Origin: Chloroflexota bacterium
GTDB taxonomy: Bacteria; Chloroflexota; Anaerolineae; Anaerolineales; Anaerolineaceae
Direction: 5' to 3'
Length of the DNA stretch: 44,199 nt
Assembly (NCBI GenBank): GCA_009773005.1
Contig: WOUT01000019.1
Coordinates: 1-44,199, forward strand
Shown: positions 2,691 through 39,652 of the stretch, piece by piece
How positions within the stretch are numbered: position 1 is the stretch's first letter
How the letters are laid out: every line of letters starts with the position of its first letter
The notes under the pieces: model-generated
What the model was told of the DNA's origin: nothing
What the model saw: only the letters and a program-made list of their open reading frames with translations
The model's database searches: none
Program-made: the position numbers and the translations under genes

Positions 2691-2696
2691 GTGGCG

Positions 2697-2725
2697 ATTG
2701 TAGCCTAAAGCAGAATGAATGGCAA
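2697..2725 (-). promoter_or_regulatory. promoter of holB giving a leaderless mRNA
   Basis: On the minus strand TTGCCA (2725-2720) and TACAAT (2702-2697) are 17 bases apart. Seven bases beyond the -10 box lies 2690, the A of the holB ATG, so transcription and translation would start at about the same base. Confidence 0.65.
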
Positions 2726-2784
2726 CCGGGATCGAAATATATTAAGATTTATTGCGATTTTGGGATCAGAAAGAATAAATATTA

Positions 2785-4485: not shown

Positions 4486-4506
4486 CTTAATAATCTCACG
4501 AATTCA

Positions 4507-4536
4507 ATTCTAACCGAGAGGCTCGGCATTCGTCAA
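4507..4536 (-). promoter_or_regulatory. promoter of the histidine kinase, with internal inverted repeat
   Basis: TTGACG (4536-4531) and TAGAAT (4512-4507) are 18 bases apart on the minus strand. The spacer contains CCGAG-agg-CTCGG (4514-4526), a perfect 5-bp inverted repeat placed where a repressor could block polymerase. Confidence 0.55.
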
Positions 4537-4623
4537 TCTCGCAAATCGGATAATAAACCTCTTTTTATATTTCAATTCTTGTACAAAACAGCGTCCCATG
4601 CTGGCTTCTGCGCCCAAACCTTG

Positions 4624-4629
4624 TATAAT
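4624..4629 (+). promoter_or_regulatory. -10 box upstream of the molybdopterin oxidoreductase
   Basis: A perfect TATAAT 20 bases before the ATG. No good -35 box is visible at 16-18 bases spacing, so the promoter is only partly supported. Confidence 0.45.
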
Positions 4630-4648
4630 TTGAGGCGAGGTGAGCAAT

Positions 4649-5284
4649 ATGGACAGTTTCGCTTATCGAAAATCTGAGGAAGACCGCGTCAAGAAAGAAG
4701 GGCGTTTGCCACCAGGACAATCCCTAACCCAGAAGTTTCCAGTGCTGCACTACGGGTCTGTGCCGTCCTTTGACCCGGAAAACTGGGATTTCAGAGTTTG
4801 GGGAGAAGTGGAAAAGCCGCTGCGGCTGACCTGGAAAGAATTCAACGAGCTACCAAAAACTACTTTGACAATGGACATTCATTGCGTGACGCGCTGGAGC
4901 AAGTTTGACACAGAATGGCAGGGCGTGGCGGTCAAGACATTGATCGACAAAGGCCTGGTGAAGGTTAATGCGGACGCCAAATTTGTGCTTCAGCATGCGG
5001 AGCATGGATTCACAACTAACCTGCCTATTGACATCACGCTGGCGGAGAACTTTTTGATGGCCACCCATTATCAGGGCGAACCGATCACTCCTGACCACGG
5101 TTATCCGCTACGGGGTGTGGTTGGGGCGATCCTGGGGAAAGATGCGCTGGCAGTTCCGTATTTCTGGAAGGGCGCCAAGTGGCTGCGCGGGCTTGAATTC
5201 ATGAAAACTGACCGTCCAGGATTCTGGGAGCAGGCAGGTTATAATAATAACGCAGGCGTTTGGTTGGAAGAACGTTTTGGATAA
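4649..5284 (+). CDS. molybdopterin-dependent oxidoreductase of the sulfite oxidase / MsrP fold
   Basis: A 211-residue protein covering the Oxidored_molyb domain. Cys79 in DIHCVTRWS matches the cysteine that ligates molybdenum in this superfamily, and WxGVxxKxLIDK follows as expected. It has no signal peptide, no twin-arginine motif and no dimerisation domain, so it is a short cytoplasmic version. The electron acceptor and substrate cannot be told from sequence. The ATG at 4649 has GAGGTGA five bases upstream and is preferred over an in-frame GTG at 4640. A TATAAT box lies at 4624-4629, and the gene ends at a strong terminator. Confidence 0.82.
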   Translation: MDSFAYRKSEEDRVKKEGRLPPGQSLTQKFPVLHYGSVPSFDPENWDFRVWGEVEKPLRLTWKEFNELPKTTLTMDIHCVTRWSKFDTEWQGVAVKTLIDKGLVKVNADAKFVLQHAEHGFTTNLPIDITLAENFLMATHYQGEPITPDHGYPLRGVVGAILGKDALAVPYFWKGAKWLRGLEFMKTDRPGFWEQAGYNNNAGVWLEERFG

Positions 5285-5289
5285 AAAAA

Positions 5290-5312
5290 CCAGCCTCTCG
5301 GCTGGATTTTTA
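5290..5312. terminator. bidirectional rho-independent terminator
   Basis: A perfect 6-bp stem, CCAGCC (5290-5295) and GGCTGG (5300-5305), with a TCTC loop. It has A-rich sequence before it and ATTTTTATT after it, so it can serve both the molybdopterin oxidoreductase and the convergent LysM gene. Confidence 0.85.
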
Positions 5313-5319
5313 TTAATGT

Positions 5320-6111
5320 TTACCTTCTCAGAATGAACTTAACGTATAATCCCAAACCGATGCCTGCCGTCAGTATCAATCCACCAACCACCGCCAGAAA
5401 CACCGAAGAGCCGCCTTCATTGTTCACGATATTGAGCGCCGAACTGGCCTGCGCGCTGAAATCGATAGTTGAGGTATCGCCAGCCTTGAGGCTGACCGAG
5501 TAATTCTGGTTCGAAGTAGGATTGTATCCATCGGGAATGGCGATACTGACTGTGTAGTCACCTTCAGGGGCATCTTCAAAACAAACCGGTTCACCTGTGT
5601 TAAGGGTGGTGCCTGTCTTGATGAAATTGCCCTCTTTGCTGGTGACGTTGATTTCTCCCCCCGCCAGACCGGTGCCGGTAATTTCAGTTTCTTCTGCCAT
5701 GGCATTGCCGTTGATATCGTTATAGAGGTACACGCAGATCGACCCAAAGCCTTCGACCGGCTGCGGTGTGGGCAGGTTGGGTGTTGGTGTAGGAGAGGGG
5801 CCGGCTGTAATTACCGCTGTGGGCACCGTGCCTAGCAACAGCTTATGGCCCACTTGCAAGAAACGGCACTTGTCCAAGTCAAGCTGGTTCAGACTGCGCA
5901 GCTTTTCGACCGGCATATTGATCAACAGCGCGATGCTATCGCAAGTATCCCCTTCTTTGATCGTATAATAGATGTTGCCGTTGGCTTCTGCGGTGGGTGT
6001 GTAAAAGAATACCTGTGCGTTCGCCGGAGACGCTAGAAGTGGCGCAGTTACAAGCGCAAAAAAACCCATTAACAAAAAGATTGTTATGAAAATATCTCGT
6101 ATCTTATTCAT
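5320..6111 (-). CDS. secreted, membrane-anchored LysM-domain protein
   Basis: 263 residues. An N-terminal signal peptide (residues 1-32) ends near ASPANAQ. A LysM domain follows at about 48-95 (YTIKEGDTCDSIALLI...), expected to bind glycan such as peptidoglycan. A Thr/Pro linker (about 100-117) leads to an SdrD-B/carboxypeptidase-regulatory-like beta domain (YLYNDINGNAMAEETE onward, about 127-220). The C-terminus has one transmembrane helix and ends in RR, so the protein would sit on the outer face of the membrane. An AAGGTGA ribosome site precedes the ATG and a TATAAT box lies 19-24 bases upstream (6130-6135). The exact role is unknown; cell-surface scaffolding is an inference. Confidence 0.8.
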   Translation of the reverse strand: MNKIRDIFITIFLLMGFFALVTAPLLASPANAQVFFYTPTAEANGNIYYTIKEGDTCDSIALLINMPVEKLRSLNQLDLDKCRFLQVGHKLLLGTVPTAVITAGPSPTPTPNLPTPQPVEGFGSICVYLYNDINGNAMAEETEITGTGLAGGEINVTSKEGNFIKTGTTLNTGEPVCFEDAPEGDYTVSIAIPDGYNPTSNQNYSVSLKAGDTSTIDFSAQASSALNIVNNEGGSSVFLAVVGGLILTAGIGLGLYVKFILRR

Positions 6112-10764: not shown

Positions 10765-11829
10765 TTACACTGAGTTCCTAAAAACTCCTGCGATCTTCTC
10801 GCTGCAGTCCGGGCACTTCCCGTCAGCGGTGACCTTGTTTTCAAGGATGCGGTAGCCGCGGCGCTGGATCAGGCGTTTGGTGCATTTCGGGCAGTGGGAG
10901 TCTTCCAGCGAGCCCACCCTGCCGGGCAGGTTGCCGGCATACACATAGCGCAGCCCGGCTTCCTGCCCGATCTCGGCGGCGCGCTGCAGGGTCTCCGCGG
11001 AAGTCGGCGGCGCTTCCACCATTTTGTAATCGGGGTGGTAAGCAGTGACATGCCAGGGGATATCTTGCGAAATGGAGGTCAGAAACCGGCCCGCGTCCCA
11101 TAATTCCTCGGTCGAGTCGTTGAAGCCCGGGATGACCAGCGTGACCACCTCCACCCACAAGCCCATCGCGCGAGCCTGCCGGATCGTATCCAGCACCGGC
11201 TGCAGCGTGCCGCCCATCTTGCGATATTGTCTGTCTTGCATGCTTTTCAGGTCGATCTTGAGCGCGTCCAACCAGGGGTGGATATAATCCAGCACTTCAG
11301 TGGTGGCGTAGCCGTTGGAGACATACGCGGTCTTGAGTCCGTTCTGTTTAGCGAGTATAAAGACTTCCACCGCCCACTCGCTGGTGATGAGCGGCTCATT
11401 GTACGAAGAAGCGACCGCCGACGCATGGTTTGCGAGCGCCAAATTGACTAGTTTTTCTGCGCTGATCGGTTGAATTTGCTCAACACTCGAACCAGCGCGC
11501 GGATCACGCAAAGCCTGGGAAGAACGCCAATTCTGGCAGAATTCACAATGAAAATTGCATCCCAGCATGCCAAAGGTCAGCACTTCGCTGCCGGGCAGAA
11601 AATGAGCAAACGGTTTCTTTTCGATCGGGTCGATGTGCACCCCGGCAACATACCCATGCGGGACTTTTAATCCGCCATTCTCGTTGAATCTTACTCCACA
11701 AATGCCACGCTTGCCCGCGTGGATCACACAACGGTGGGCGCAGGCGGTGCAACGCAGCCCCTTGTTCTCCAGGGATTCAAACAGGCTGCCTGCCTGAGAA
11801 TAGCGATCCAATTCATCCTTTATATCCAT
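10765..11829 (-). CDS. amrS: AmmeMemoRadiSam-system radical SAM enzyme
   Basis: 354 residues from an ATG at 11829, with GGAGAAAG just upstream. Longer in-frame upstream sequence runs across the mutS2 start and is not coding. The N-terminus has a cysteine cluster (CTACAHRC, then ICGVR). The radical SAM triad is in GCNFHCEFCQNW (C-x3-C-x2-C). The body matches the PflA-like AmrS group (SYNEPLITSEW, YVSNGY, DALKIDLKSM, TLVIPGFNDS). The C-terminus adds two CxxC pairs (CPKC and CPDC), a small zinc ribbon. The AmrS reaction is not well established; genomes often pair it with Memo and AMMECR1 proteins, none of which is here. It diverges from mutS2. Confidence 0.85.
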   Translation of the reverse strand: MDIKDELDRYSQAGSLFESLENKGLRCTACAHRCVIHAGKRGICGVRFNENGGLKVPHGYVAGVHIDPIEKKPFAHFLPGSEVLTFGMLGCNFHCEFCQNWRSSQALRDPRAGSSVEQIQPISAEKLVNLALANHASAVASSYNEPLITSEWAVEVFILAKQNGLKTAYVSNGYATTEVLDYIHPWLDALKIDLKSMQDRQYRKMGGTLQPVLDTIRQARAMGLWVEVVTLVIPGFNDSTEELWDAGRFLTSISQDIPWHVTAYHPDYKMVEAPPTSAETLQRAAEIGQEAGLRYVYAGNLPGRVGSLEDSHCPKCTKRLIQRRGYRILENKVTADGKCPDCSEKIAGVFRNSV

Positions 11830-11909
11830 TCTTTCTCCTGCTTCTATTATAGCAAGGAGGCGACAGCCGAAGCAACCGGTATTCCGGAAATCAAAAAACC
11901 AGGATGTGG

Positions 11910-11915
11910 TAAACT
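11910..11915 (+). promoter_or_regulatory. extended -10 element immediately before mutS2
   Basis: TGG followed by TAAACT forms an extended -10 (11907-11915). The transcript would start near 11922, two bases before the ATG at 11924, so the mRNA is probably leaderless. There is no ribosome site and no good -35 box. Confidence 0.45.
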
Positions 11916-11923
11916 CGCTAAGT

Positions 11924-14329
11924 ATGGACGAGAAAACATTAAAGACCCTTGAATTCCCGAAAGTCATCGAGAAACTGGCTGGCTTTGCCGCATTCAGCGC
12001 CTCTGCAGAACTGGCCAGATCGCTCAAACCAGCCCCGACCCTTGCAGAAGCGCTGGAACGGCAAACCAAAACCACGGAAGCCCGCCGTTTGCTAAGTATC
12101 AAGGCTGATGTGAGCGTTGGCGGAGCGCATGATATTCGTCCGCTGGCTGACCTGGCGCGCCGCGGCGGTGTGTTGACTGAAACAGAACTGCTGGCGGTTA
12201 GCGGCACGCTGGTCTCTTCACGCAGTCTGGCAAAGTCGTTTGAAAAACGAACCCGCGAGTTCCCTCATCTGGCTGAGATCGTCAAACTCTTCCCACCTCC
12301 GCCTGGCATCATCGAGGCAATTTCCCGCTGCATCTCTGACCGCGCCGAAGTGCTGGATTCCGCGTCTCAAAAGCTGAAATCCATCCGCTCGGAGATCCAT
12401 GTTTCACACGCCCGGCTGCTGACCAAACTGGAGCGCATACTATCTGATTCACACACCGCCCCAATGCTGCAGGAGTCGCTCATCACCCAGCGTAATGGCC
12501 GCTATGTCATCCCGCTGCGCGCTGAATTTCGCAGTAAATTGAAATCCATCGTGCATGACCAATCCTCCTCCGGGGCAACCTTGTTTGTTGAGCCGGTGGC
12601 GGTGGTTGAACTTAACAATCGCTGGCATGAATTGCAGCTGCAGGAGCGTGATGAAATCCGGCGGATTTTAGCGGAGTTGTCTGCAAAAGTAGGCGCCGAA
12701 GCCGAAGCCATTCGCGGCATTGTGGACGCGCTGGCGTTTTTTGATTTCACCCTGATGTGCGCAAAATATGGCGATGAGCTGCGCGCCAGTGAACCCATTC
12801 TTAAAACGGTCAGACCGCCTGCCAAAGAGCATCATCCGGGTACATGCATCCGGTTATTTCAGGCTCGTCATCCTTTGCTTGATCAGAGCACGGTCGTCCC
12901 CATTGATGTTGACCTGGACGCTCATACATTTGCGGTGATCATCACCGGACCCAATACAGGCGGAAAGACGGTTACACTCAAGACCGTCGGGTTGATGATC
13001 ATCATGGCGCAGTGCGGCCTGCACATCCCTGCCCAATCCGGGTCAGAGTTGAGCTTCTTTGACAACGTTTTCGCGGATATAGGCGACGAACAATCCATTG
13101 AACAGTCGCTATCGACCTTTTCCGGTCATATCACCAATATCGTCCGCATTTTGGAAAAAGCGCGAACCAAGACGCTCGTCCTGCTGGATGAACTGGGAGC
13201 AGGCACTGACCCTCAGGAGGGTTCTGCATTAGCAAGGGCGATCATGTTGTATCTGGTTGACAGGCGCATCCCCTGCCTGATTGCTACTCATTACCCGGAG
13301 CTCAAAACTCTTGCGCACGCCACACCGGGTGTTGTCAATGCCAGCATGCAATTCGACCTAAAAACGTTGCTCCCGACCTATCATCTAACCATAGGCATCC
13401 CCGGGCATTCGAATGCGCTGGCGATTGCCAAACGCCTGAATCTGCCGGATGAAATCCTGGATTCAGCAAAAACAATGATCGACCCAAGTGAGTTGAAATC
13501 TGAAGAGTTGTTAAAAGAGATCCACCATCAGCGCGAAGTCGCTCTCAAAGCCAGATCCGCAGCCGACCGCGACCGGTCGCTGGCGATCAATTTGAAAGAA
13601 GAACTCGCCAACCAATTGGAAAAAATCGAGGACGAACGCCACCTGGCTCTTGAAAAAGCCAGAGCAGAAGCCGAGAAAGAATTGGAAAGTCTTCACAAGG
13701 AAATGGATGTAATTAGAAGGGATCTTCAGCGTGCCAGGCAGCCTTTGGAAGCCTTAAAAGCGATTGAGAAACAAGTCGAACAGGTTGACGAAAAAATATC
13801 CAAACCCGTTGAACGGAAGCTGATCATCAATGCTGGAAAAATCTCGTTGATGCCAAAACTGGGTGAACGGGTCAAACTGCGCACCTTGCAAATGGAAGGC
13901 TTGGTGACCGCGGTCGGCGAAAATGATCTTGAGATACAGGTTGGCAGTCTACGAGTGCGCGCAAAAAAAGATGATCTTCAACCGATTTTACAGCACATTG
14001 AAGAGACAGCGACCCCGGAAAAAAATAAGAAATTGACACAAGGCGCTTCCCGAACCCCCTCAAAAACGACACCCTTCCATCCGTCGCCGGGGATGGAGAT
14101 CGACCTGCGCGGTCAGCGTGCCGAAGACGCTCTAGACGCTCTTGACCGCTATCTGGCGAACGCCTTCATGGCTGGTATGCCATTTGTCCGTATCATTCAC
14201 GGCAAAGGCACGGGCCGCTTGCGCCAAGTGATCCGCGAAGCGCTTAAAGAAGCAGAAGAAGTTAAAAATTTTGAGGAAGGCGGTGAAAAAGAGGGTGGAG
14301 ACGGGGTTACGATTGCCCATTTGGAATAA
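11924..14329 (+). CDS. mutS2: endonuclease MutS2
   Basis: 801 residues, full length for MutS2. The N-terminal core and clamp helices run to about residue 320. The ABC-type ATPase carries Walker A (GPNTGGKT, about 342) and Walker B (LVLLDELGAGTDPQ, about 420), plus ATHYPELK. A coiled coil (about 530-630) is rich in charged residues. A KOW-like segment (MPKLGERVKLR) precedes the Smr nuclease domain with IDLRGQR and HGKGTGRLR. MutS2 suppresses homologous recombination and, in some bacteria, rescues collided ribosomes. The ATG at 11924 is preferred over a GTG at 11906. It converges on the SARP gene across a 13-bp hairpin. Confidence 0.93.
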   Translation: MDEKTLKTLEFPKVIEKLAGFAAFSASAELARSLKPAPTLAEALERQTKTTEARRLLSIKADVSVGGAHDIRPLADLARRGGVLTETELLAVSGTLVSSRSLAKSFEKRTREFPHLAEIVKLFPPPPGIIEAISRCISDRAEVLDSASQKLKSIRSEIHVSHARLLTKLERILSDSHTAPMLQESLITQRNGRYVIPLRAEFRSKLKSIVHDQSSSGATLFVEPVAVVELNNRWHELQLQERDEIRRILAELSAKVGAEAEAIRGIVDALAFFDFTLMCAKYGDELRASEPILKTVRPPAKEHHPGTCIRLFQARHPLLDQSTVVPIDVDLDAHTFAVIITGPNTGGKTVTLKTVGLMIIMAQCGLHIPAQSGSELSFFDNVFADIGDEQSIEQSLSTFSGHITNIVRILEKARTKTLVLLDELGAGTDPQEGSALARAIMLYLVDRRIPCLIATHYPELKTLAHATPGVVNASMQFDLKTLLPTYHLTIGIPGHSNALAIAKRLNLPDEILDSAKTMIDPSELKSEELLKEIHHQREVALKARSAADRDRSLAINLKEELANQLEKIEDERHLALEKARAEAEKELESLHKEMDVIRRDLQRARQPLEALKAIEKQVEQVDEKISKPVERKLIINAGKISLMPKLGERVKLRTLQMEGLVTAVGENDLEIQVGSLRVRAKKDDLQPILQHIEETATPEKNKKLTQGASRTPSKTTPFHPSPGMEIDLRGQRAEDALDALDRYLANAFMAGMPFVRIIHGKGTGRLRQVIREALKEAEEVKNFEEGGEKEGGDGVTIAHLE

Positions 14330-30760: not shown

Positions 30761-31618
30761 TCAAAACTCGATTACCGCTTCAATAGGCACTTCCGGGTAG
30801 ATCTGCATCGGTGTAGGCGGCATCGGGTTGTAGGCATAATCCAGTTGCACTACACCGCATTTCACGCCTGCCGATCGTTTCGCGCCTTGATACGTTCCGC
30901 GTACCAGTACGTCTTCCATCGAGAGCGCCATACCGAACACCGCCATTGGTATATTCGCAGGGATTTGCGATAACTCTTCGCCAAAAGCGCCGAACGAAAA
31001 GATCATATGTTCCCGGTCCAGTGACTGAGCCTGGATCAATGGTATGATGACCGGATACCCGTCCGCGCCCACGTAGGCAAGGAACTTGAGATTATCAATC
31101 TTGTCATAAAACGCCTTGGACCATAGGTTGAGCACCACGGCTTTTTCATGCTTGAGGGAAAAGAACTTGGCAATCATCGTCTTGACCGCCGCGAGGATGA
31201 TCTGATTCATGGGCAGCGGGTGCTTGCCCGTTTGAGCGATCAAATTCATATAGTGCACGGTATGCACGCCAAAATAGGCATTATAGCGGAAGAGCGGGGT
31301 ATTGTTATAGAAATCGTACTCCCTTCCTTCTTTTGCTGAATGGGTGTAAACCGCGCAGCCTCGCCACACATTTTTATCCAGCCCCATCACCATGAACCCG
31401 GTCTTCGGATTTTGCTTGATATGCTGCTTGCTTACGCCCTCCATGAACTGCCCCCACACCATCTCTTTCGGCGAACTGGCCATCAAGGTTGTGATCAAGG
31501 TCAGATGCGGCAAACCTTCTGGGGTCACTGTGCCCAGAATCCCCACCTTCATGGTTGCCGAAAGGTCTTTAATATCCTGCTCTGAAAACTGTGTGTGCGG
31601 ATAACGTGGATTGCTCAT
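30761..31618 (-). CDS. PPOX-like flavin-binding split-barrel protein
   Basis: 285 residues with the pattern of two pyridoxamine-5'-phosphate-oxidase-like split barrels (LSATMKVGILGTVTPEGLPH near residue 20; NLKFLAYVGADGYPVIIPL near 180). The fold usually binds FMN, F420 or haem. A helical insert lies between them. GGAGGG sits directly before the ATG. It is the last gene of the glycyl-radical operon, 27 bases after the activase, and this link suggests a redox or substrate-handling role for that enzyme; this is inference. Confidence 0.65.
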   Translation of the reverse strand: MSNPRYPHTQFSEQDIKDLSATMKVGILGTVTPEGLPHLTLITTLMASSPKEMVWGQFMEGVSKQHIKQNPKTGFMVMGLDKNVWRGCAVYTHSAKEGREYDFYNNTPLFRYNAYFGVHTVHYMNLIAQTGKHPLPMNQIILAAVKTMIAKFFSLKHEKAVVLNLWSKAFYDKIDNLKFLAYVGADGYPVIIPLIQAQSLDREHMIFSFGAFGEELSQIPANIPMAVFGMALSMEDVLVRGTYQGAKRSAGVKCGVVQLDYAYNPMPPTPMQIYPEVPIEAVIEF

Positions 31619-31645
31619 ATCCCTCCGATTGAATTATTTCTAGTA

Positions 31646-32620
31646 TTAATTATCAATCCTTATAGCGCCAGTCACAAAAATCCTTTCCGGATCAAAACCG
31701 CTGTCTTTTGCCCACATCTCGATGCGTGCCAGATCCCCAGCCGACATCAAAGGCGTTTCCGCGAATACCCACTCCTTCTCCAGACGCGCATATTTGTCAC
31801 GACACAGGTTGTTGAAAGCACACAGTTCCCAGCGCTCCACACTGCCTCTCATGTGCTGTGCCAGGTATTCTCCGATCCCCTCAATGTTTTCCCGGTGGTC
31901 TGTTGCTTGAGGGATCAAGGGAGTGCGCACCCACAACTTTTTGTTGTTCTGCGATGATTGCACCCGCTCTTTGGCGATGAGCAGATTGGCGAGGATATGT
32001 TTATTGCTCACCCCTGTCCATTGCTCATGTTCCAACTCATTGATTAATTTCAAATCAAACAGAATAATATCGACATTATCGATCAGCTTTTCAAGCGTAT
32101 CCGGCGGGCATAATCCGCTTGTATCCAGGGCAATTGAGAGTCCTCTATCTTTCAAGGCTTTGATCAACGCCAGGGTAAACGCTGGTTGAAGGGATGGTTC
32201 TCCTCCCGAGAGTGTAACCCCCCCATTGGATTTTTCAAAAAAGGCTCGGTCTTTAACGAGCTCATTTGCCAAATCTATAACTGTAATATCCTCACCGAGC
32301 ATTTCCATGGCTCCGGTCGGGCAGGCTTGCACACATTTACCGCAGGTGATGCAGCGCGTTCGATCGCGTTTAATGCCGTTTGCTGTTTTTTCCAAACTGT
32401 GACGATCACAGGTTTCAAGACAGGAATCGCAGCTTATGCAGCGGTTCCCGATCCATTGCACCTGAGGTTTGAGCAGCAGACTCTCAGGGTTATGACACCA
32501 GGCGCACTTCAGCGGGCAACCTTTATAAAACACAGTAGTACGGATGCCCGGACCATCCTCAGTGGAAAGTCGCTGAAGATGCAAGATTGTACCGGTAACG
32601 GGAGCAGTGGTTTCAGGCAT
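31646..32620 (-). CDS. glycyl-radical enzyme activating enzyme
   Basis: 324 residues from ATG at 32620, with AGGGAG just upstream; a GTG at 32635 is possible but overlaps the previous gene. The radical SAM triad is C35-x3-C39-x2-C42 in GCPLKCAWCHNPE, followed by two ferredoxin-type clusters (CISCDSCLETC and CITCGKCVQACPTGA). GGVTLSGGEPSLQP is the SAM-binding GGE motif. It would abstract a hydrogen from the glycine of the partner protein to make the protein radical in anoxic cells. It lies 8 bases after the partner gene ends. Confidence 0.93.
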   Translation of the reverse strand: MPETTAPVTGTILHLQRLSTEDGPGIRTTVFYKGCPLKCAWCHNPESLLLKPQVQWIGNRCISCDSCLETCDRHSLEKTANGIKRDRTRCITCGKCVQACPTGAMEMLGEDITVIDLANELVKDRAFFEKSNGGVTLSGGEPSLQPAFTLALIKALKDRGLSIALDTSGLCPPDTLEKLIDNVDIILFDLKLINELEHEQWTGVSNKHILANLLIAKERVQSSQNNKKLWVRTPLIPQATDHRENIEGIGEYLAQHMRGSVERWELCAFNNLCRDKYARLEKEWVFAETPLMSAGDLARIEMWAKDSGFDPERIFVTGAIRIDN

Positions 32621-32628
32621 GCATCTCC

Positions 32629-35148
32629 CTAGCACATTTGGTGACTTTCACGGGTGATAATCTCATCCTGCAGTTCCTTGCCAATGGTTGTGAAATAGGC
32701 GTTATAACCGGTTACGCGCACCAGCAGGTGACGGTAGTCTTCAGGGTGTTTCTGGGCATCCCGCAGTAAATCCACGTTGAGCATATTTATCTGCAGTGCA
32801 CTGCCGCCATTTTCGATATAGCCGCGCAGGAATGCCTTGAATTTATCGCGGTGCTCAGGATCACGCATGATCGAAGGGTTGAAAGTGATGGTATGGCTGC
32901 CGCCATTCGGCAGCACGTTGAAGTATTCGCCCCAGTCTCCCTTGCCGTCCAGGGCTTTTCCGCCCATCACCTTGCCAACCGAGTTAACATTTGCCGTTGG
33001 GCCTTTTATGTCAGCGCCATTCGACGGACAGATCGCGTTTGAAAGGAACTTTCCTCTGGCACGGCCGTCGGGGCTGGCAGCCAGGATATTTGAATAAGAT
33101 ATCCAGTAGTTCCAGCTCAACATACCCGGGCGGAACTGTCGATTTGTGGAACTAGTCTTGTACTTCCAGACTTCCTCTGTCCATAAATCCATCACCTGTT
33201 TTGCCATACGGTCAGCAACATCATCATCCCGTCCGTATTTCGGCGTTTTGTTCACCGCAATAGCTTGCAGTTTCTCGTGTCCGGACCAATTTTCACGCAA
33301 AGCAGCGATCAGTTCTTTCAAAGTGCACACTTTTTTATCATATACGAGGTACTTGACAGCTAAAAGCGAATCAACTGTAGATGCATAAGTAACCGCCTCA
33401 ACCGTGACAAAATTGAGTTCCGCCCCGCCCTGGTTGATATCGTTTCCACTCGCGGCGCAGCCCTTCACCAGACAGGAAAGATAAGGCGTCTGGAAGAAGC
33501 GTGCCCGGATCGCTTCGGATTTTTCATATAACTTAACACTACGTTTAATGATGTGTTTTGTTTGTACAACGTAAGCCTGCCAGACCTGCTCCCAGGTTGT
33601 GAAAGTCTCAGGGCTGCCCGTATCTGCGCCATCCAGCGTCAATTTTGCAGGTTTTCCGGTCAGCGCATCCACCACCGGATTCATGTCGTACCCGCCCGTC
33701 ATGGTCAACTCCACAGCCTTCAACAGGTTTAGATTGTCATCCACCGTGCCAGAACGGTCATTGCCGACCATGGTGTTTTCCAAACACCCAACCGGGGCGT
33801 ACTCGTGCACATTGGTTGAGTTGATCAAGTGTTCCACGCCAGTCTTGCGCGCTTCCAGCATCATTCCTGCCATGGACCGTTCGTCAAAATTGAGCAGGAA
33901 AGGCGCACCCTGACTGCTGGCGATCATCTCAACTACTTTATCCATCAATTGCTCTGGTGTTCCGCGATGCAAGCGCAAGTTAGGTTTTGGCTCAAGAATG
34001 GGCGTCATCTCGTCAATGACCTCAAGCATGGCATAAGTAAGGTCATTGGTCATATCAAACCCGGCAGCGCCAACCCCCGAAAGTGTGATCAACTGTCCGT
34101 AACCAGCCGTGATGCCTTGATTGCCGCCGGTATGGATCATAGCGTCGTAAGCAGTGTTGCAGTGTACCCAAAAACACTTCAAGATCTCCTTGCCAAACTC
34201 GCGCTCCATCCCGTTTTTCAACGAGGATTCCCACAAAGGAAACAGGTACTGATCGATCCGGCCAAATGACACACCCGGGCCCGGATAGTTCTCATCAGCC
34301 ATTACCAGCATATGCGTGATCCACAGCGACTGAACGGCTTCCCAAAAATTGCGGGCGGGTTCCCAGGGTACACGAGCCATGTTCGCTGCCATTGTCTTTA
34401 GTTCAATTCTCCTCGCCGGTTCGCTTTCTTTTTCTGCCATTTCGGCGAGAAGCTTGTGATATTTTTTCGCAAGATCACGTGCCATGGTCGAAGCAGTCTG
34501 CATTGCCCGCAGTTGCCCACCTTTTGACCCTTTTTTATCAGACTCGGAAAGCGCTTCGTAATATTTTTTGAGATCAGCATTGATCGCAATCCACCCTTTT
34601 TCGATAACCTGGGCATACCCGGGCACAATGTGTCCGCTGGTAGCTCCAGCATTGCCGTAACCGTGGTTATGGAACCACAGCATCGCTGCACGGGAACCGT
34701 TCTTGCCATAGATTAAGGAGTCATATTCTTTAGTTTCGCGTTCGGTCAGGCAGTGCGAGATCATCACGTTAAAACGCGCCCCTGCCAACAGATCGCCTGG
34801 CAAGATCTCTTTGGGTAAATAATCAACTATGACCGCTTTCAGGAACCAAGCCCGGCGTTCAGGCAGGCTCCATTTCCAAAAATCCTGATGCAATGCCACT
34901 GGTTTGGCAGTTTGCTTAAAAGAAGAGCGGAAGGTTGGGATATAGAAATACGTTTCTGGAACTATGTAAAAGGACAGTTCATTATATTGAAAATCCCACG
35001 GAGTGCCAGTCGTCCACGAGGTGTATTCGTTGTTCCACTTTCTATTCACCCCTTGAAAAAAATAATCTCGCAGCCAACCGACCCGATCAGAAAGCAGTTT
35101 AGGTTCCTTAATAGTGAACCTTGGTTTTTCGGTTGTAATCGTAGACAT
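32629..35148 (-). CDS. glycyl radical enzyme of the PFL-like superfamily, substrate unknown
   Basis: 839 residues from ATG at 35148, with GGAGG five bases before it; longer upstream sequence overlaps the regulator region. The glycyl radical site is Gly814 in RVTGYNAYF near the C-terminus. The catalytic thiyl Cys455 lies in VGCLEN with Glu457 two residues on, the Cys-x-Glu pattern seen in dehydratase and decarboxylase-type members (glycerol dehydratase, choline lyase, hydroxyphenylacetate decarboxylase), not the Cys-Cys of pyruvate formate-lyase. PYLSCLVKGC and GGAELN are also typical. Residues that would name the substrate were not resolved. The activase follows directly. Confidence 0.88.
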   Translation of the reverse strand: MSTITTEKPRFTIKEPKLLSDRVGWLRDYFFQGVNRKWNNEYTSWTTGTPWDFQYNELSFYIVPETYFYIPTFRSSFKQTAKPVALHQDFWKWSLPERRAWFLKAVIVDYLPKEILPGDLLAGARFNVMISHCLTERETKEYDSLIYGKNGSRAAMLWFHNHGYGNAGATSGHIVPGYAQVIEKGWIAINADLKKYYEALSESDKKGSKGGQLRAMQTASTMARDLAKKYHKLLAEMAEKESEPARRIELKTMAANMARVPWEPARNFWEAVQSLWITHMLVMADENYPGPGVSFGRIDQYLFPLWESSLKNGMEREFGKEILKCFWVHCNTAYDAMIHTGGNQGITAGYGQLITLSGVGAAGFDMTNDLTYAMLEVIDEMTPILEPKPNLRLHRGTPEQLMDKVVEMIASSQGAPFLLNFDERSMAGMMLEARKTGVEHLINSTNVHEYAPVGCLENTMVGNDRSGTVDDNLNLLKAVELTMTGGYDMNPVVDALTGKPAKLTLDGADTGSPETFTTWEQVWQAYVVQTKHIIKRSVKLYEKSEAIRARFFQTPYLSCLVKGCAASGNDINQGGAELNFVTVEAVTYASTVDSLLAVKYLVYDKKVCTLKELIAALRENWSGHEKLQAIAVNKTPKYGRDDDVADRMAKQVMDLWTEEVWKYKTSSTNRQFRPGMLSWNYWISYSNILAASPDGRARGKFLSNAICPSNGADIKGPTANVNSVGKVMGGKALDGKGDWGEYFNVLPNGGSHTITFNPSIMRDPEHRDKFKAFLRGYIENGGSALQINMLNVDLLRDAQKHPEDYRHLLVRVTGYNAYFTTIGKELQDEIITRESHQMC

Positions 35149-35176
35149 CTTGTTTCCTCCTTGTGAAGATTGAATG

Positions 35177-35899
35177 TCAGGTTCTGAGATGCTTTTCACC
35201 GTGGATAAGCAGCGCTCTCATGATCTCGGCCGATTTTTCACATTGGCGCTCTTCAAAAGCATCCACCAACTTTTTATGAAACCCGAAAACTTCGTCAATA
35301 AGCGAGCTGCCAGCGGTTTTCACAAAGAAAGCGGATGTGAAATGGGTGTATACAGATTTGAATGAATTCAGGATCAACGGATAAACCAAATTTTCCGAAG
35401 CAATCGAGATGAGCAGGTGAAATTCGAAATCAAGCTCGGTCAATAATGCCAGATCTCTCCGGTTTGTTGCAAATTCACTTTTGATAATCTCGCGCAGCCC
35501 ATTGATTTGTTCCTGAGAGGCATTCGTGGATGCCAGCCTGGCGGTTTCTGTTTCTATCAGAATGCGCATGGAGAGTAGACTGTCAACTAATTGTGGAGCC
35601 AATTCACCGTTATGGTAGGAAAGCAATGAAGAAAGAATGGCAAACGACCCTGACTTGCGGAAGTCATTGATCACCACTCCGCGGCGTGGAATGATCGTAA
35701 CCAGTCCTTTCGCGGCCAGGTCTACAATCGCTTCATGCAGAACCGGTCGGCTGACTCCCAGGCGTGCGGCCAAGTCACGTTCCGAGGGCAGATGGTCTCC
35801 TTTTTTTAATTCTCCAGAGAGGATCAATTCCTCAAGACGATTAATACAAGCCTCTTTTAAACTGGCTACATGAAGCGGCCCGAGGGGTAAAGTCATCAT
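35177..35899 (-). CDS. FadR-subfamily GntR transcriptional regulator
   Basis: 240 residues from the ATG at 35899 (or 35896). The N-terminal GntR winged helix is clear (LPSERDLAARLGVSRPVLHEAI). The C-terminal helical FCD ligand-binding domain (about 90-235) has LLTELDFEFHLLISIAS and a conserved-type HKKLVDA. FCD domains usually bind a small carboxylate with a metal ion. It is the first gene of the operon, 28 bases before the glycyl radical enzyme gene, so it probably senses that pathway's substrate or product and controls its own promoter. In-frame sequence upstream of 35899 is non-coding promoter DNA. Confidence 0.85.
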   Translation of the reverse strand: MMTLPLGPLHVASLKEACINRLEELILSGELKKGDHLPSERDLAARLGVSRPVLHEAIVDLAAKGLVTIIPRRGVVINDFRKSGSFAILSSLLSYHNGELAPQLVDSLLSMRILIETETARLASTNASQEQINGLREIIKSEFATNRRDLALLTELDFEFHLLISIASENLVYPLILNSFKSVYTHFTSAFFVKTAGSSLIDEVFGFHKKLVDAFEERQCEKSAEIMRALLIHGEKHLRT

Positions 35900-35921
35900 A
35901 ATTGGAGTCCTTGCTTTGATT

Positions 35922-35935
35922 TGGTAAAGCCACCA
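35922..35935. promoter_or_regulatory. possible GntR-type operator in the leader
   Basis: TGGT-aaagcc-ACCA, a perfect 4-bp inverted repeat just after the predicted transcript start. FadR-family sites often have TGGT-Nn-ACCA with shorter spacing, so this is plausible but unproven. Confidence 0.4.
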
Positions 35936-35944
35936 GCCAATATA

Positions 35945-35973
35945 ATTATATAAACTATTTTTGGTAATTTCAA
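35945..35973 (-). promoter_or_regulatory. promoter of the glycyl-radical operon
   Basis: TTGAAA (35973-35968) and TATAAT (35950-35945), exactly 17 bases apart on the minus strand. Expected start is near 35938, giving a leader of about 40 bases before the regulator gene. Confidence 0.7.
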
Positions 35974-35977
35974 TAGG

Positions 35978-36040
35978 ATACAAGAATATTCCCCCCACAA
36001 TACAAGAATATTCCCCCCACAATACAAGAATATTCCCCCA
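35978..36040. repeat. three 22-bp tandem repeats with GAATATTC palindromes
   Basis: Units start at 35978, 36000 and 36022; the first two are identical and the third is 19 bases with one C fewer. Each reads ATACAAGAATATTCCCCC at its start and contains the perfect palindrome GAATATTC. The array ends 5 bases behind the -35 box of the glycyl-radical operon. A further stem, ATTCCCC (36032-36038) and GGGGAAT (36046-36052), follows. Confidence 0.9.
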
Positions 36041-36076: not shown

Positions 36077-37093
36077 TTAATAAGTAAGTGTTTTCTCGTC
36101 CGCTTTCACGCGCTTTCGAAACACCCGGTAGGTCCAGATCTGGTAAGCCAAAACGATTGGAACCATAATCGCCGCCACAATGGACATCACCTTGAGGGTG
36201 TAAGGTGAAGAGGATGCATTATAAATGTTCAAATTAAAATCCGCCGATGTGCTTGACATCATCACATTCGGGAAGAGCGCCGTGAACAGGCTACCGACGG
36301 TGAAGACCACTGCCATTCCTGTAGTAGCAAAAGAGTAACCTTCCCTTTTTGCTCCCATGAAGATCCTGGAAAGGATCAGTAAGACTACTGCAAGGACTGG
36401 TAAAATCAACCCCACAAGACCTTTTTCTTGAAAAGCTGACGTGGAAAATACGAGGTAAGAAAAATAGCTTCCCGCCAGCAGAAAAGCGGCGATCCAAATC
36501 GAGCGAGCGAAGTTACCAGCCCGTTCTCGCAGTGTATCGGTCAGCTTGAGAGTTAAGAAGTTCGCGCCATGCAGAAGGAATACTACTGCAACCGTGATAC
36601 CGCCCAAAATACTGAGCGGGTTCAACAACGTGAAAAAGGTTCCGGTGTAGACCTGATTGCCATCAATGGGAACCCCTTTGACCAAATTGGTGAAGACCAC
36701 GCCCAGCAGAAATGCCGCCAAAAAACTGCTCACCGCGATAGCTGCGTCCCAGCCGTTTCGCCATTTTGGATTGCCGATCTTACTGCGGAATTCGAAAGCC
36801 ACACCGCGGAAAATGAGCGCGATCAGCAGCAGGAACATACCCAGATAGAACCCACTAAACATGGTGGCGTACCAATTTGGAAACGCCGCGAAAGTTGCTC
36901 CACCCGCAGTGATGAGCCAAACTTCATTTCCATCCCAGTGTGGGCCAATGGTATTGATCACGGCGCGCCGTTCAACATCTTTCTTTCCTACGAACGGCTG
37001 CAGCATGCCAACCCCAAAATCGAACCCTTCAAGGAAGAAGAACCCGGTATACAAAACACCGATCAGGACAAACCAAAGAATATTGAGATTCAT
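36077..37093 (-). CDS. cydB: cytochrome bd ubiquinol/menaquinol oxidase subunit II
   Basis: 338 residues with eight to nine transmembrane helices. The family start is clear (LWFVLIGVLYTGFFFLEGFDFGVGML). It stabilises the high-spin haems in CydA, and the complex reduces oxygen to water at low oxygen tension without pumping protons. It overlaps cydA by four bases (ATGA), so the subunits are translationally coupled. A small CydX-type subunit was not found downstream. Confidence 0.95.
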   Translation of the reverse strand: MNLNILWFVLIGVLYTGFFFLEGFDFGVGMLQPFVGKKDVERRAVINTIGPHWDGNEVWLITAGGATFAAFPNWYATMFSGFYLGMFLLLIALIFRGVAFEFRSKIGNPKWRNGWDAAIAVSSFLAAFLLGVVFTNLVKGVPIDGNQVYTGTFFTLLNPLSILGGITVAVVFLLHGANFLTLKLTDTLRERAGNFARSIWIAAFLLAGSYFSYLVFSTSAFQEKGLVGLILPVLAVVLLILSRIFMGAKREGYSFATTGMAVVFTVGSLFTALFPNVMMSSTSADFNLNIYNASSSPYTLKVMSIVAAIMVPIVLAYQIWTYRVFRKRVKADEKTLTY

Positions 37094-38487
37094 TTCTTTT
37101 CTCCTGTTGTTTTTGCTTCCACAATTTCATCCAAGGGGACAGAGTCCATATCTCCAGCCGCCAATCCCTTCCTGGCATTTTTCAAAAGCAAGAAGAGGTC
37201 AAACCCCATCAACACCGCATATACAACCACAAAGCCGATTAGACTGATTAAAACCGAAGTGACTGTCAAATTGGGCGAGACGGCATCCCTGGTCTGCATG
37301 AGACCATGTACCACCCACGGTTGGCGGGCTGTCTCTGTCAGGATCCAGCCACAGGTGTTCGCGATGTAAGGCAGCGCCATTGCCAGCACCAGCCATTTGA
37401 GATACTTCAACCACTTTTCAGGATATTTCTTTGCGGTTATAAACCAGGCTGCTGCGGCAATCGCGACCATCAAAAAGCCAATTCCCACCATGATCCTGAA
37501 CATCCAGTAATTCAGCGCAACCAGTGGCACGTAGTCACCAGGGCCGTACTGTTCTTCATATTGAGCCTGAATATCATTGATACCTTCCACCTCGCCGGAA
37601 GGTTTGAAGTAGTAAAGCATACTTAACGCTTTGGGGATTTTCAAACTCCAAACTTCTTTTTTTCCGGTTGAGTCAAAGATGGCAACCACCGAAAAATCTG
37701 CAGGGTCCTGCGTTTCGTAATGCGCTTCTGAAGCGGCCGCCGCCATGGGTTGAACTTCACGCAGGTAGACTCCCTGCAAGTGCCCCGTCCCCACTACGCC
37801 GATGGTCGCGAAGAGACCGATGATTGCAGCCAGCCGAAACGAGATCTGAAACGCGCTTGCTTCTTTTTTCTTGAGCATATGATAAGCGCTGAACCCCAGG
37901 ATGAAAAACGACGCAGTCACCAACCCAGAAGTGAAAGTATGCAAGAACATATACCAGGCCCGCGGATTGGTCAGCAGAGCGCCGAAATCGACCATTTCTG
38001 CCCGACCGTTATTGATCACATACCCAACCGGATTTTGCATAAAGCCGTTTGCCGTCAAGATCCAGAAGGCGCTCAAATTGCCACCGATTGCCACCAGCCA
38101 CATTACCGCGGCGTGCAGCTTCCTGGAGATGCGCTCCCAGCCAAAAATCCACACGCCCAGGAAGGTCGACTCCAGAAAAAACGCCAACAGCCCTTCCACC
38201 GCCAAAGGAGCGCCAAAAACATCTCCCACAAATCGGGCGTATGCAGACCAGTTCATGCCAAACTGAAATTCCAACACAATGCCAGTCACAACACCCATAG
38301 CGTAGTTGATCAGAAACAACTTACCCCAGAATTTTGTGAGTCTCTTGTAAACCGGGTTGCCATTTTTCACATACATCGTTTCGAGGATCGCCACAAACCA
38401 CCCCAACCCCAGCGTGAGTGGGACAAAAAAGAAGTGGTAAATCGTGGTTAAAGCAAATTGCCAACGGGATAATTCCACTAAATCCAT
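37090..38487 (-). CDS. cydA: cytochrome bd oxidase subunit I
   Basis: 465 residues with about nine transmembrane helices. His18 (haem b595 side), His183 (haem b558) and Glu99/Glu107 (proton path) match the E. coli positions 19, 186, 99 and 107. The quinol-binding Q-loop after about residue 250 is of the short form, common outside the proteobacteria. The GRQPW-like motif reads ARQPWVVHGLMQT. It lies 24 bases after a UbiA-family gene, fitting joint production of a quinone and the oxidase that uses it. A bd oxidase in a genome with a glycyl radical enzyme suggests oxygen protection of an anaerobe or a facultative lifestyle. Confidence 0.96.
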   Translation of the reverse strand: MDLVELSRWQFALTTIYHFFFVPLTLGLGWFVAILETMYVKNGNPVYKRLTKFWGKLFLINYAMGVVTGIVLEFQFGMNWSAYARFVGDVFGAPLAVEGLLAFFLESTFLGVWIFGWERISRKLHAAVMWLVAIGGNLSAFWILTANGFMQNPVGYVINNGRAEMVDFGALLTNPRAWYMFLHTFTSGLVTASFFILGFSAYHMLKKKEASAFQISFRLAAIIGLFATIGVVGTGHLQGVYLREVQPMAAAASEAHYETQDPADFSVVAIFDSTGKKEVWSLKIPKALSMLYYFKPSGEVEGINDIQAQYEEQYGPGDYVPLVALNYWMFRIMVGIGFLMVAIAAAAWFITAKKYPEKWLKYLKWLVLAMALPYIANTCGWILTETARQPWVVHGLMQTRDAVSPNLTVTSVLISLIGFVVVYAVLMGFDLFLLLKNARKGLAAGDMDSVPLDEIVEAKTTGEKK

Positions 38488-38511
38488 AATACGCTCCTTA
38501 ATCCTATTTTT

Positions 38512-39552
38512 TTATCTGACAGTCCAAAAGTCAGGCAGGAAGAGCCGTAGGACTACATCAATGATCAACCCCAACAAAAATAGATTGCTAAATAAGCGAT
38601 TGTGATAAAACGCAAACCCGGAGAACCAGGCTGGCCAGGCTGGCCATTCTTTGGGCGGCTCAACAGGTCGTGGTTTGGCATGCACCCCAATCGCATAAAA
38701 AGCGCGTTTGCCAGCCACTAACACAAGCATCATCACAGGCGTGAAATATTGTGGCACAAATATCAGGTAAAAGGTTGTGAGGTAGATCATGGCGATTACA
38801 ACCATATTAAGAATTCGAGCCGCTTTTTCGCCAATCAATACTGGAAGGGTGCCGACTCTTTTTTTGCGGTCTTCAACCGACTTGTCTATATGTTTACCGA
38901 TATTGATACTGACCACGCTCAACCCGAAGGGTACCGCCGCCAATGCCACATCCCACACCGAGTTGACCATCCCCTTTGCTAGAACCAGGTATACCCCTGA
39001 TACTAAAATGGGGCCCCATATAAGAAAGATGGAAAGTTCGCCCAGAGCAATGTGTTTTAATGGCCAAGTGTAAAAAAGCAACACTACTGCTCCAAAGGTA
39101 AACAACCAGATGATCACAGGCGAAAAATTCGTATAGAAAAGGGCGAACACGCCCGCGAGGACTGCGGGAAATCCGCTTGCCACAAACCAGCTTAATTGCT
39201 GATTTTTTGTCCAAAATCCCTGCACAAGCGGATGCACACCATATTGGGTGCGGAAATAGTTATCACTGTCGATACCGCGCGAATAATCGGTCAAGTCGTT
39301 GAGAAGGTTATTTGTGCCGTGAGCGATGAACAACCCGGTAGTGATGATGAGCCATGGTAAAATGGCAAAAAAGCCATCACGCCATGCCAGCAGTCCGCCA
39401 ATCGCACATGAGTAAAGAGTGACAATCGTTACCCCTGATCGGGTCGCAATGAACCATTTGGACATCAGGTCCAATCGGTTCCACTCTTCCATGGAATCCA
39501 TTTTGACCAGGGAAGATAGCGCTTTTCTCCACATGCCAAAGTTTATTTTCAT
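38512..39552 (-). CDS. UbiA-family prenyltransferase
   Basis: 346 residues from ATG at 39552, with GGGGAGG upstream; an extra in-frame Met at 39579 has no ribosome site. Eight to nine transmembrane helices carry the two aspartate-rich motifs: NDLTDYSRGIDSD near residue 90 and DKSVEDRKKRVGTLP near 225, which bind prenyl diphosphate with magnesium. The enzyme attaches a prenyl chain to an aromatic acceptor in quinone synthesis. Placement just before cydAB suggests a menaquinone or related quinone (MenA-like role), but the acceptor is not proven by sequence. Confidence 0.82.
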   Translation of the reverse strand: MKINFGMWRKALSSLVKMDSMEEWNRLDLMSKWFIATRSGVTIVTLYSCAIGGLLAWRDGFFAILPWLIITTGLFIAHGTNNLLNDLTDYSRGIDSDNYFRTQYGVHPLVQGFWTKNQQLSWFVASGFPAVLAGVFALFYTNFSPVIIWLFTFGAVVLLFYTWPLKHIALGELSIFLIWGPILVSGVYLVLAKGMVNSVWDVALAAVPFGLSVVSINIGKHIDKSVEDRKKRVGTLPVLIGEKAARILNMVVIAMIYLTTFYLIFVPQYFTPVMMLVLVAGKRAFYAIGVHAKPRPVEPPKEWPAWPAWFSGFAFYHNRLFSNLFLLGLIIDVVLRLFLPDFWTVR

Positions 39553-39652
39553 AAGAGCCTCCCCGCCTTTTTCAGGCAAAAATAGTCACAATACACAATC
39601 TAAACAACTTCAACCACTATCATCATTTTAATCTTTTTTAGAAAAATAAGCA

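Follow-up and report, generated by a model that had tools for sequence, protein, structure and literature searches.

A candidate glycyl radical enzyme subfamily with a PPOX-like companion in an Anaerolineaceae genome

Some of the most demanding reactions of anaerobic metabolism are initiated by glycyl radical enzymes (GREs), and time and again a new subfamily has brought new metabolites. Among the closest described systems, hydroxyproline dehydratase (HypD) is adjoined by pyrroline-5-carboxylate (P5C) reductase, operons of hydroxyphenylacetate decarboxylase (HPAD) are compact, and in other GRE operons reductases or dehydrogenases hold the product-handling place. The locus described here lies on a 44,199-nt stretch of DNA (the window; contig WOUT01000019.1, assembly GCA_009773005.1, Chloroflexota bacterium, Anaerolineaceae), in which a FadR-type regulator, a GRE, its radical-SAM activating enzyme (activase) and a PPOX-like protein follow one another in that order on the minus strand, in one run at 30761-35899 with intergenic gaps of 28, 8 and 27 nt. 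A co-directional four-gene run with gaps of 8-28 bases, proposed in an earlier sequence-only reading, is thereby borne out, with Pfam and NCBIfam models confirming the regulator, GRE and activase; the interval then given for the operon, 32629-36040, holds the GRE and regulator, but the activase and PPOX-like gene fall just outside it. Judged from sequence, the window GRE belongs to a new subfamily that has no match to the characterized families compared. The host genome (2.86 Mb, 97.5% complete, 3.1% contamination) contains one PF02901 match in total.

The glycyl radical enzyme and its relatives

The window protein has the features of the GRE superfamily, namely barrel and glycyl radical domains (Pfam PFL-like PF02901, 388 bits; Gly_radical PF01228, 78 bits), aligned Cys and Gly residues, and a radical-SAM activase alongside, which scores 303 bits with TIGR02494 (cut-off 174; from the GTG start) and 51.5 bits with Pfam Radical_SAM, contains Fer4 and carries CPLKCAWC, a CX3CX2C motif. 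The best NCBIfam result for the GRE comes from the broad PFL2-3 model, at 393 bits (cut-off 678), and every equivalog model returns 377 bits or less, all under cut-off: 377 versus 1100 bits required for HypD (NF043068), 312 versus 1050 for CutC (TIGR04394), 359 and 355 versus 1000 for HpsG/HpfG (NF048011/NF048009), 233 versus 1100 for indoleacetate decarboxylase (NF033718) and 166 versus 1150 for HPAD (NF033715). Other GREs of the same phylum (17 tested of 19 found) score 470-803 bits with PFL2-3; the HypD cut-off is reached by five of the 17 and that for HpsG by one. Profile scores of Protein Data Bank (PDB) sequences were 381 bits for CutC, 378 for HypD and 346 for glycerol dehydratase (GD), as compared to 287/213 for BssA/TutD, 240 for 7e7l and 163 for HPAD, so that the fumarate-adding synthases rank below the eliminases. 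The top match of a single-sequence PDB search with the window GRE was HypD (6vxc, 282 bits), and identity to 37 other GREs reached at most 0.33 (median 0.30, core alignment).

Relatives of the window GRE fall into clade A, to which it belongs, and a more divergent group B (~800 aa, 43-48% identity to clade A by tblastn). Among open reading frames (ORFs) of at least 400 aa in these loci, profile scores were ≥1157 bits in clade A, 579-975 in group B and ≤385 in other GREs, a 430-bit match (L172), which judging by length shares its contig with L029, being taken as a fragment of the L029 GRE. In a FastTree phylogeny of 59 sequences, A and B together are monophyletic with local support of 1.0 on a stem of 0.65 substitutions/site; their nearest neighbors are weakly supported (0.13), and group B is not itself monophyletic. 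This tree holds neither decarboxylase nor fumarate-adding references (no BssA/MasD), has clade A thinned to 10 sequences, and omits ORFs under 590 aa together with L008, L021, L133, L172, L196 and L197 (fused, partial or unclear).

Scanning species genomes with six peptides of the window GRE, a query that favors close relatives, returned 41 loci with best-segment identities of 58-85%, all 41 from metagenome-assembled genomes (MAGs) or uncultured records. They were assigned to Chloroflexi/Anaerolineales, Desulfobacterales and other Deltaproteobacteria, Myxococcales, Poribacteria, Spirochaetales/Treponema, Bacillota, Oscillospiraceae and Gracilibacteraceae. Profile searches of genome draws per phylum, each including a center genome chosen for having the GRE, found it in 36/345 genomes from the phylum of G404 (genome of the deltaproteobacterial locus L047; A and B together, about a tenth), in 4/348 from that of G411 (genome of the Oscillospiraceae locus L062) and in 4/400 from the window's phylum (three clade-A genomes, among them the window's, and one of group B). 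Thirteen GRE-profile matches were seen in G409 (Desulfosudis oleivorans, genome of L058), several in ORFs of ~1000 aa and some being fragments that share an ORF.

The catalytic residues are conserved throughout these relatives. Cys and Glu occupy the Cys455 and Glu457 columns in 70/70 clade-A and 12/12 group-B sequences, and Gly the Gly814 column in 67/70 (two gaps, one Val) and 10/12 (one gap, one Lys); Gly814 is also invariant across the 37 rows of a further alignment (A2). The sequence-only reading had named these three residues, with numbers that are correct when counted from the ATG start, and had proposed using them with pocket residues and a tree for placement; so placed, the GRE does not cluster in any characterized family among those compared. 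At the substrate-pocket positions of GD and HypD, little is shared. Of GD His164, His281, Ser282, Asp447 and Tyr640, the window GRE retains His164 alone (as His173, equivalent to HypD His160), with Asp447 replaced by Val469, His281/Ser282 by Pro291/Gly292 and Tyr640 by Leu677. HypD Asp278 and Thr645 correspond to Pro291 and Trp679, and Phe340 and Tyr450 are likewise not kept.

Conversely, 54 positions are conserved in clade A (≥97%) and group B (≥90%) and occur in ≤15% of the 37 other GREs, the N-terminal ones being less certain as some references lack that part. They include Trp679-Asn680-Tyr681-Trp682, Asp464, Arg465, Val469, Asp470, Asn472, Glu584 (Glu in 70/70 and 12/12), Glu286 and Tyr288. 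The sequence of 5ymr (PDB label: formate acetyltransferase), presumably an isethionate lyase, also has Asp in the Asp464 column and Glu in the Glu584 column. The sulfonate-lyase Arg columns, which we assume to bind sulfonate (169 in both HpsG sequences; 675 in 5ymr), correspond to Ala169 and Gly675 in the window GRE. Clade A and group B probably have a common chemistry and a pocket unlike those already known. Membership of the operon in a characterized GRE family (hydroxyproline dehydratase, choline lyase, glycerol/propanediol dehydratase, sulfonate lyases or fumarate-adding synthases) could draw on the C-x-E motif and His173, both common with dehydratases, but is very improbable and was rejected, as all equivalog cut-offs are failed, the GD and HypD pocket residues are replaced and the enzyme forms a separate clade, in a tree composed as stated above.

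The PPOX-like partner

Co-occurrence at the level of loci and genomes, together with a signature that is invariant despite low identity, indicates that the PPOX-like protein is an old, nearly obligate companion of the GRE in the sampled genomes. Its gene lies downstream of the GRE in 55/55 clade-A and 8/9 group-B loci, these being the loci with at least 2.6 kb of downstream DNA out of 70 clade-A and 12 group-B distinct loci. The genome of L070, the group-B locus without a nearby PPOX gene, encodes a PPOX of the group-B type on a different contig (L071). With profiles built from the same loci that were counted, the partner (E ≤ 1e-10) is matched in 4 of the 400 genomes of the window's phylum, exactly those with the GRE, and strongly matched (weakest E 8e-74) in 35 of the 345 genomes of the G404 phylum, all within the 36 GRE genomes. 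In the 36th (G687, locus L156), which gave no strong partner match, the contig ends ~46 nt past the activase match. Partner and GRE lie on separate contigs in G480 and G528, the strong match in G413 is cut by a contig end, and 12 further genomes of the G404 phylum gave only partial-length matches (~67-98 residues, E 1e-9 to 3e-14). The chance that the PPOX gene is a mere accidental neighbor, a reading for which nothing was found in favor, is practically negligible, and it was rejected on this locus and genome co-occurrence, which extends over several phyla for the loci and two for the genomes.

The signature RYNxY (R111, Y112, N113 and Y115) is present in 35/35 clade-A and 9/9 group-B partners (44/44) and belongs to ~20 positions conserved across both groups, while the window partner is 17-25% identical to group-B partners. 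The window protein scores 23.0 bits with Pfam PNPOx_N (PF01243; cut-off 28.1), a model matched at E ≤ 0.01 by 31/35 family members including the window's; of three members scored against the cut-off, L145 (46.6) and L041 (28.7) pass it and L151 (24.6) stays below. The C-terminal half of the partner profile matches 2htd with E 2e-4, a weak split-barrel resemblance, and the N-terminal half gives E 0.07-0.2 with 1rfe and HupZ, which is not significant; support for the N-terminal half comes from PNPOx_N. The partner probably consists of two tandem split-barrel-like halves.

An activase is found in 47/55 clade-A loci by a strict ORF test, and of the remaining eight tblastn adds six (L027, L044, L059, L063, L135 and L139), leaving L064 and L142. 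In L064, L142, L158 and L159 the partner is retained with no activase between partner and GRE; three of these four genomes have activase-like genes elsewhere, and neither the surroundings of L064 nor, at E ≤ 1e-40, its genome G412 yielded one. L064 also carries a FAD amine-oxidoreductase-like gene (11795-13294) between GRE and PPOX, the start of which is seen in L035 from 6884 before the contig end; the same cluster takes in L033.

Rather than catalyzing a pathway step, the partner could serve the GRE as an accessory or protective subunit, for example as a flavin-bearing radical guard or an electron donor to the activase. The small subunits of hydroxyphenylacetate decarboxylase and of Bss are analogs for such a role. 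In the accessible text of PMC12583861, the limonenylsuccinate synthase operon contains LssP, an expressed PPOX-like protein without a clear role. The nearly one-to-one occurrence of partner and GRE also fits, as does a divergence of the partner across the two groups that is fast by comparison with the GRE. On the other side, the invariant polar RYNxY among its conserved positions resembles an active site, and the electron-donor variant is less likely, given that the partner is kept in the four loci without an adjoining activase. This explanation is a possible one, clearly short of an even chance. In the sequence-only reading the PPOX-like protein had been a possible "unusual accessory" whose co-occurrence elsewhere was to be checked; the gene proved to be conserved beside the GRE in relatives, and the term understates a protein as strictly present as the GRE itself in the sampled genomes.

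Regulator, operator and gene neighborhood

The regulator is of the FadR subfamily, with GntR helix-turn-helix and FCD domains over the Pfam cut-offs. Across 43 regulators D157 (43/43), H161 (43/43), H208 (42/43) and H233 (41/43) are conserved, which are presumably the metal ligands of FCD proteins. By a stricter test, in loci with 1 kb of upstream sequence, the regulator is present in 36/62 clade-A and 0/10 group-B loci. The palindrome TGG[TC]N3ACCA lies in the 100 nt that precede the FadR match in 42/43 loci with the regulator and before the GRE in 0/33 loci without it (shuffles, 0.16% per 100 nt), 3/79 loci having too little upstream sequence to be counted. L135 is the sole FadR locus without an exact palindrome, and there a near match is visible by eye. 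The best palindromes extend to TTGGCTGGTGGT-N3-ACCACCAGCCAA; in the window copy one side reads TGGC. As a sequence, the candidate palindrome fits the FadR-subfamily consensus TKGT-N3-ACMA, that is, TKGT/ACMA boxes with a 3-nt spacer, and the effectors of this subfamily are described as small ligands such as carboxylic acids (accessible text of PMC4494728). Just upstream of the candidate operator, between the regulator and the gene at 36077, a 22-bp unit (ATACAAGAATATTCCCCCCACA) is repeated in 2.8 perfect tandem copies (35978-36039).

A scan of 19 genomes for TGGCTGGTGGT-N3-ACCA with up to two mismatches, the reversed pattern serving as control, found among the matches listed at least eight genomes with one exact match each, located on the operon contig. 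Approximate copies exceeded the control at least 1.7-fold in 7/19 genomes, were about equal in five and fewer in seven; the window genome has 18 copies versus 10 in the control.

Across 78 loci, the broadly recurrent neighbor clusters of proteins ≥100 aa are the GRE (78), PPOX (72), the activase (68) and FadR (42). No transporter, bacterial microcompartment (BMC) protein or aldehyde/alcohol dehydrogenase recurs, as judged by eye from cluster representatives with no domain scan of all neighbors. The sequence-only reading had seen no small iron-sulfur subunit of the HPAD type, and none is recurrent among these neighbors, a search that proteins <100 aa would escape. An arylacetate-type decarboxylase, whose waste product would explain the absent recurrent transporter and downstream pathway, is consistent with the lack of recurrent downstream genes except the partner. 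By hand alignment, the conserved Glu584 may also match catalytic Glu637 of hydroxyphenylacetate decarboxylase. The role of Glu637 is described in the accessible text of PMC9248008, as is a Glu502-to-Gln change that mimics phenylacetate decarboxylase, unlike Glu457 of the window GRE. Further points against a decarboxylase are the indoleacetate and HPAD model scores, which lie under those of the eliminase models as they do with the PDB profiles, the Glu of 5ymr in the Glu584 column and the lack of a recurrent small subunit among proteins ≥100 aa, and this explanation is improbable.

Some loci carry additional genes, none of them widely recurrent. In L060 (Gracilibacteraceae MAG), the sole locus with a transporter, a TRAP transporter DctP-DctQ-DctM (2576-5604) immediately precedes the GRE. 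In 5/79 loci, of clade A and group B alike, a second GRE is encoded close to the operon (Table 1). The three complete ones share 60-75% mutual identity and three GD-like pocket residues (His, Asp and Tyr), passed no NCBIfam cut-off, and give hints, from these residues, of polyol-like or hydroxy-acid chemistry. In the deltaproteobacterial loci L044 (13495-14982), L047 and L056 (8255-9745), a sulfatase (confirmed by Pfam in L044) and a small membrane protein lie downstream of PPOX. An opposite-strand ThiT-like gene precedes the group-B GRE in L148, L149 and L152, the first two of which also have a thiamine-pyrophosphokinase-like gene (names by eye). Upstream of the window operon and in the same direction, 36077-39579 holds genes that by eye resemble cytochrome bd oxidase subunits and a UbiA-type prenyltransferase; six close relatives (L025-L028, L050 and L065) retain them, and no such cluster was seen beyond these.

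Table 1. Coordinates of the operon features in the window and, in the last row, of second GREs in other loci
Feature	Position	Strand	Basis
Candidate FadR operator	35922..35939	(-)	Window copy TGGCTGGTGGCTTTACCA; family palindrome TTGGCTGGTGGT-N3-ACCACCAGCCAA
GntR/FadR-subfamily regulator, FCD effector domain	35177..35899	(-)	Pfam GntR 68, FadR_C 65.6, FCD 59 bits
GRE, clade A, 839 aa	32629..35148	(-)	PFL-like and Gly_radical Pfam domains; ATG after AAGGAGG
Cys455 codon, predicted thiyl radical residue	33784..33786	(-)	Aligns with GD Cys433, HypD Cys434
Glu457 codon, predicted acid/base	33778..33780	(-)	Aligns with GD Glu435, HypD Glu436
Gly814 codon, predicted glycyl radical site	32707..32709	(-)	Aligns with GD Gly763, HypD Gly765
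Radical-SAM activating enzyme, ferredoxin-like insert	31646..32620 (possible GTG start 32635)	(-)	TIGR02494, Radical_SAM, Fer4
PPOX-like partner, 285 aa	30761..31618	(-)	PNPOx_N family matches; co-occurrence with GRE
RYNxY signature of PPOX-like partner (R111-Y115)	31274..31288	(-)	Invariant among aligned partners
Second GREs	L132 12304-14775; L135 2308-4686; L149 9650-12091; L133 ~3179-5517 (two pieces); L160 3870-4295 (piece)

Proposed mechanism and comparison with known systems

The gene set is probably a self-contained, autoregulated radical module. The FCD-type FadR repressor would sense a small, probably carboxylate-bearing metabolite and, once ligand-bound, would lift repression at its own palindromic candidate operator. 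Following established GRE chemistry, the radical-SAM activase would place the radical on Gly814, from which it would pass to Cys455, with Glu457 as acid/base. The GRE would then perform eliminase-type C-heteroatom cleavage, likelier than decarboxylation, on a carboxylate- or polyol-like substrate seated in a pocket not common to the GREs compared, with His173 kept from glycerol/hydroxyproline dehydratases and Trp679-Asn680-Tyr681-Trp682, Arg465, Asp470 and Val469 distinctive. The two-barrel RYNxY partner most likely binds flavin and would finish the conversion by acting on the GRE product, in the place held elsewhere by reductases or dehydrogenases. This combination of an eliminase-type GRE and a product-acting partner is favored because the eliminase profiles score best, a dehydratase-like GRE adjoins some operons and no other product-handling gene recurs. 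As a whole, the account of an autoregulated module with an eliminase-type GRE and a partner acting on its product is held tentatively, somewhat short of an even chance, and an accessory role of the partner is nearly as likely as the product-acting one. The carboxylate or diol-like compound that the sequence-only reading had proposed as the regulator's ligand is consistent with the FCD residues, the TRAP transporter of L060 and the second GREs; the substrate itself is inferred.

Several observations weigh against the favored account. The pocket assignments rest on sequence alignment; group-B sequences score 482 (partial) and 499 bits with PFL2-3, above the window's score, and so lie nearer known families; and the A-B identity of 43-48% falls in the 40-50% range given as below the threshold for functionally distinct GREs (accessible text of PMC11528403). 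Partner identity across the two groups is 20-27%, a divergence far ahead of that of the GRE and as compatible with an accessory role as with a product-acting enzyme; the likely flavin binding of the partner has weak fold similarity as its support. A transporter in one locus only leaves "carboxylate or polyol" weakly supported. A wider regulon beyond the operon may exist, since approximate operator copies exceed the control in 7/19 genomes and other targets are thus possible.

A bolder version, which is unlikely, is a two-component system in which a GRE with an unprecedented pocket and an obligate flavin-bearing split-barrel protein would couple radical and flavin chemistry on one substrate, for example through flavin-dependent reduction of an unsaturated product that radical elimination has formed, or through one-electron exchange between flavin and substrate radical. 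To our knowledge, no characterized GRE couples the two chemistries. Open-access literature, the range of the search (subscription papers and supplements lying outside it), yielded, among the papers listed, no GRE paired with a PPOX-like/FMN-binding split-barrel protein beyond PMC12583861. The limonene GRE of that operon was rejected as a relative, being by the accessible text a fumarate-adding synthase and thus of another family, and the benzene-activation literature, as far as its accessible text goes, concerns other proteins. Present in several phyla, the GRE and its partner are a widespread candidate for new anaerobic chemistry, and a strict enzyme-partner pair under a ligand-sensing regulator with a clear candidate operator makes the substrate approachable via the regulator.

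Among known systems, the HypD operon resembles the window operon in its GRE and radical-SAM activase, the C-x-E loop and the equivalence of His173 and HypD His160. It differs in that the window GRE stays under the NF043068 cut-off and does not keep Asp278, Phe340, Tyr450 or Thr645, and a PPOX-like protein takes the position that P5C reductase has beside HypD. The B12-independent glycerol/diol dehydratase shares the eliminase-type scaffold and the His164 equivalent; however, its Asp447, His281/Ser282 and Tyr640 equivalents are replaced in the window GRE, and, unlike at glycerol/diol dehydratase loci, no microcompartment or aldehyde/alcohol dehydrogenase cluster was recognized by eye among recurrent neighbors. 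Isethionate and dihydroxypropanesulfonate lyases (IslA/IseG and HpsG) are alike in the Glu584 and Asp464 columns of 5ymr but differ in their separate clade, in both sulfopropanediol cut-offs, which the window GRE does not reach, and in the Arg columns, here Ala169/Gly675. Hydroxyphenylacetate and indoleacetate decarboxylases are likewise GREs with C-x-E, in compact operons in the case of HPAD, from which the window GRE is set apart by low model scores and by the absence of a recurrent small subunit among neighbors of at least 100 aa. LssP offers the nearest parallel to the partner, a PPOX-like protein without a clear role beside a GRE, with the difference that its GRE is a fumarate-adding synthase; the likeness is drawn from the description of LssP (accessible text of PMC12583861). 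PNPOx-like/FMN-binding split-barrel proteins (PF01243, COG3576) are weakly matched by each half of the partner, which in contrast has two such halves per chain, the RYNxY signature and linkage to a GRE.

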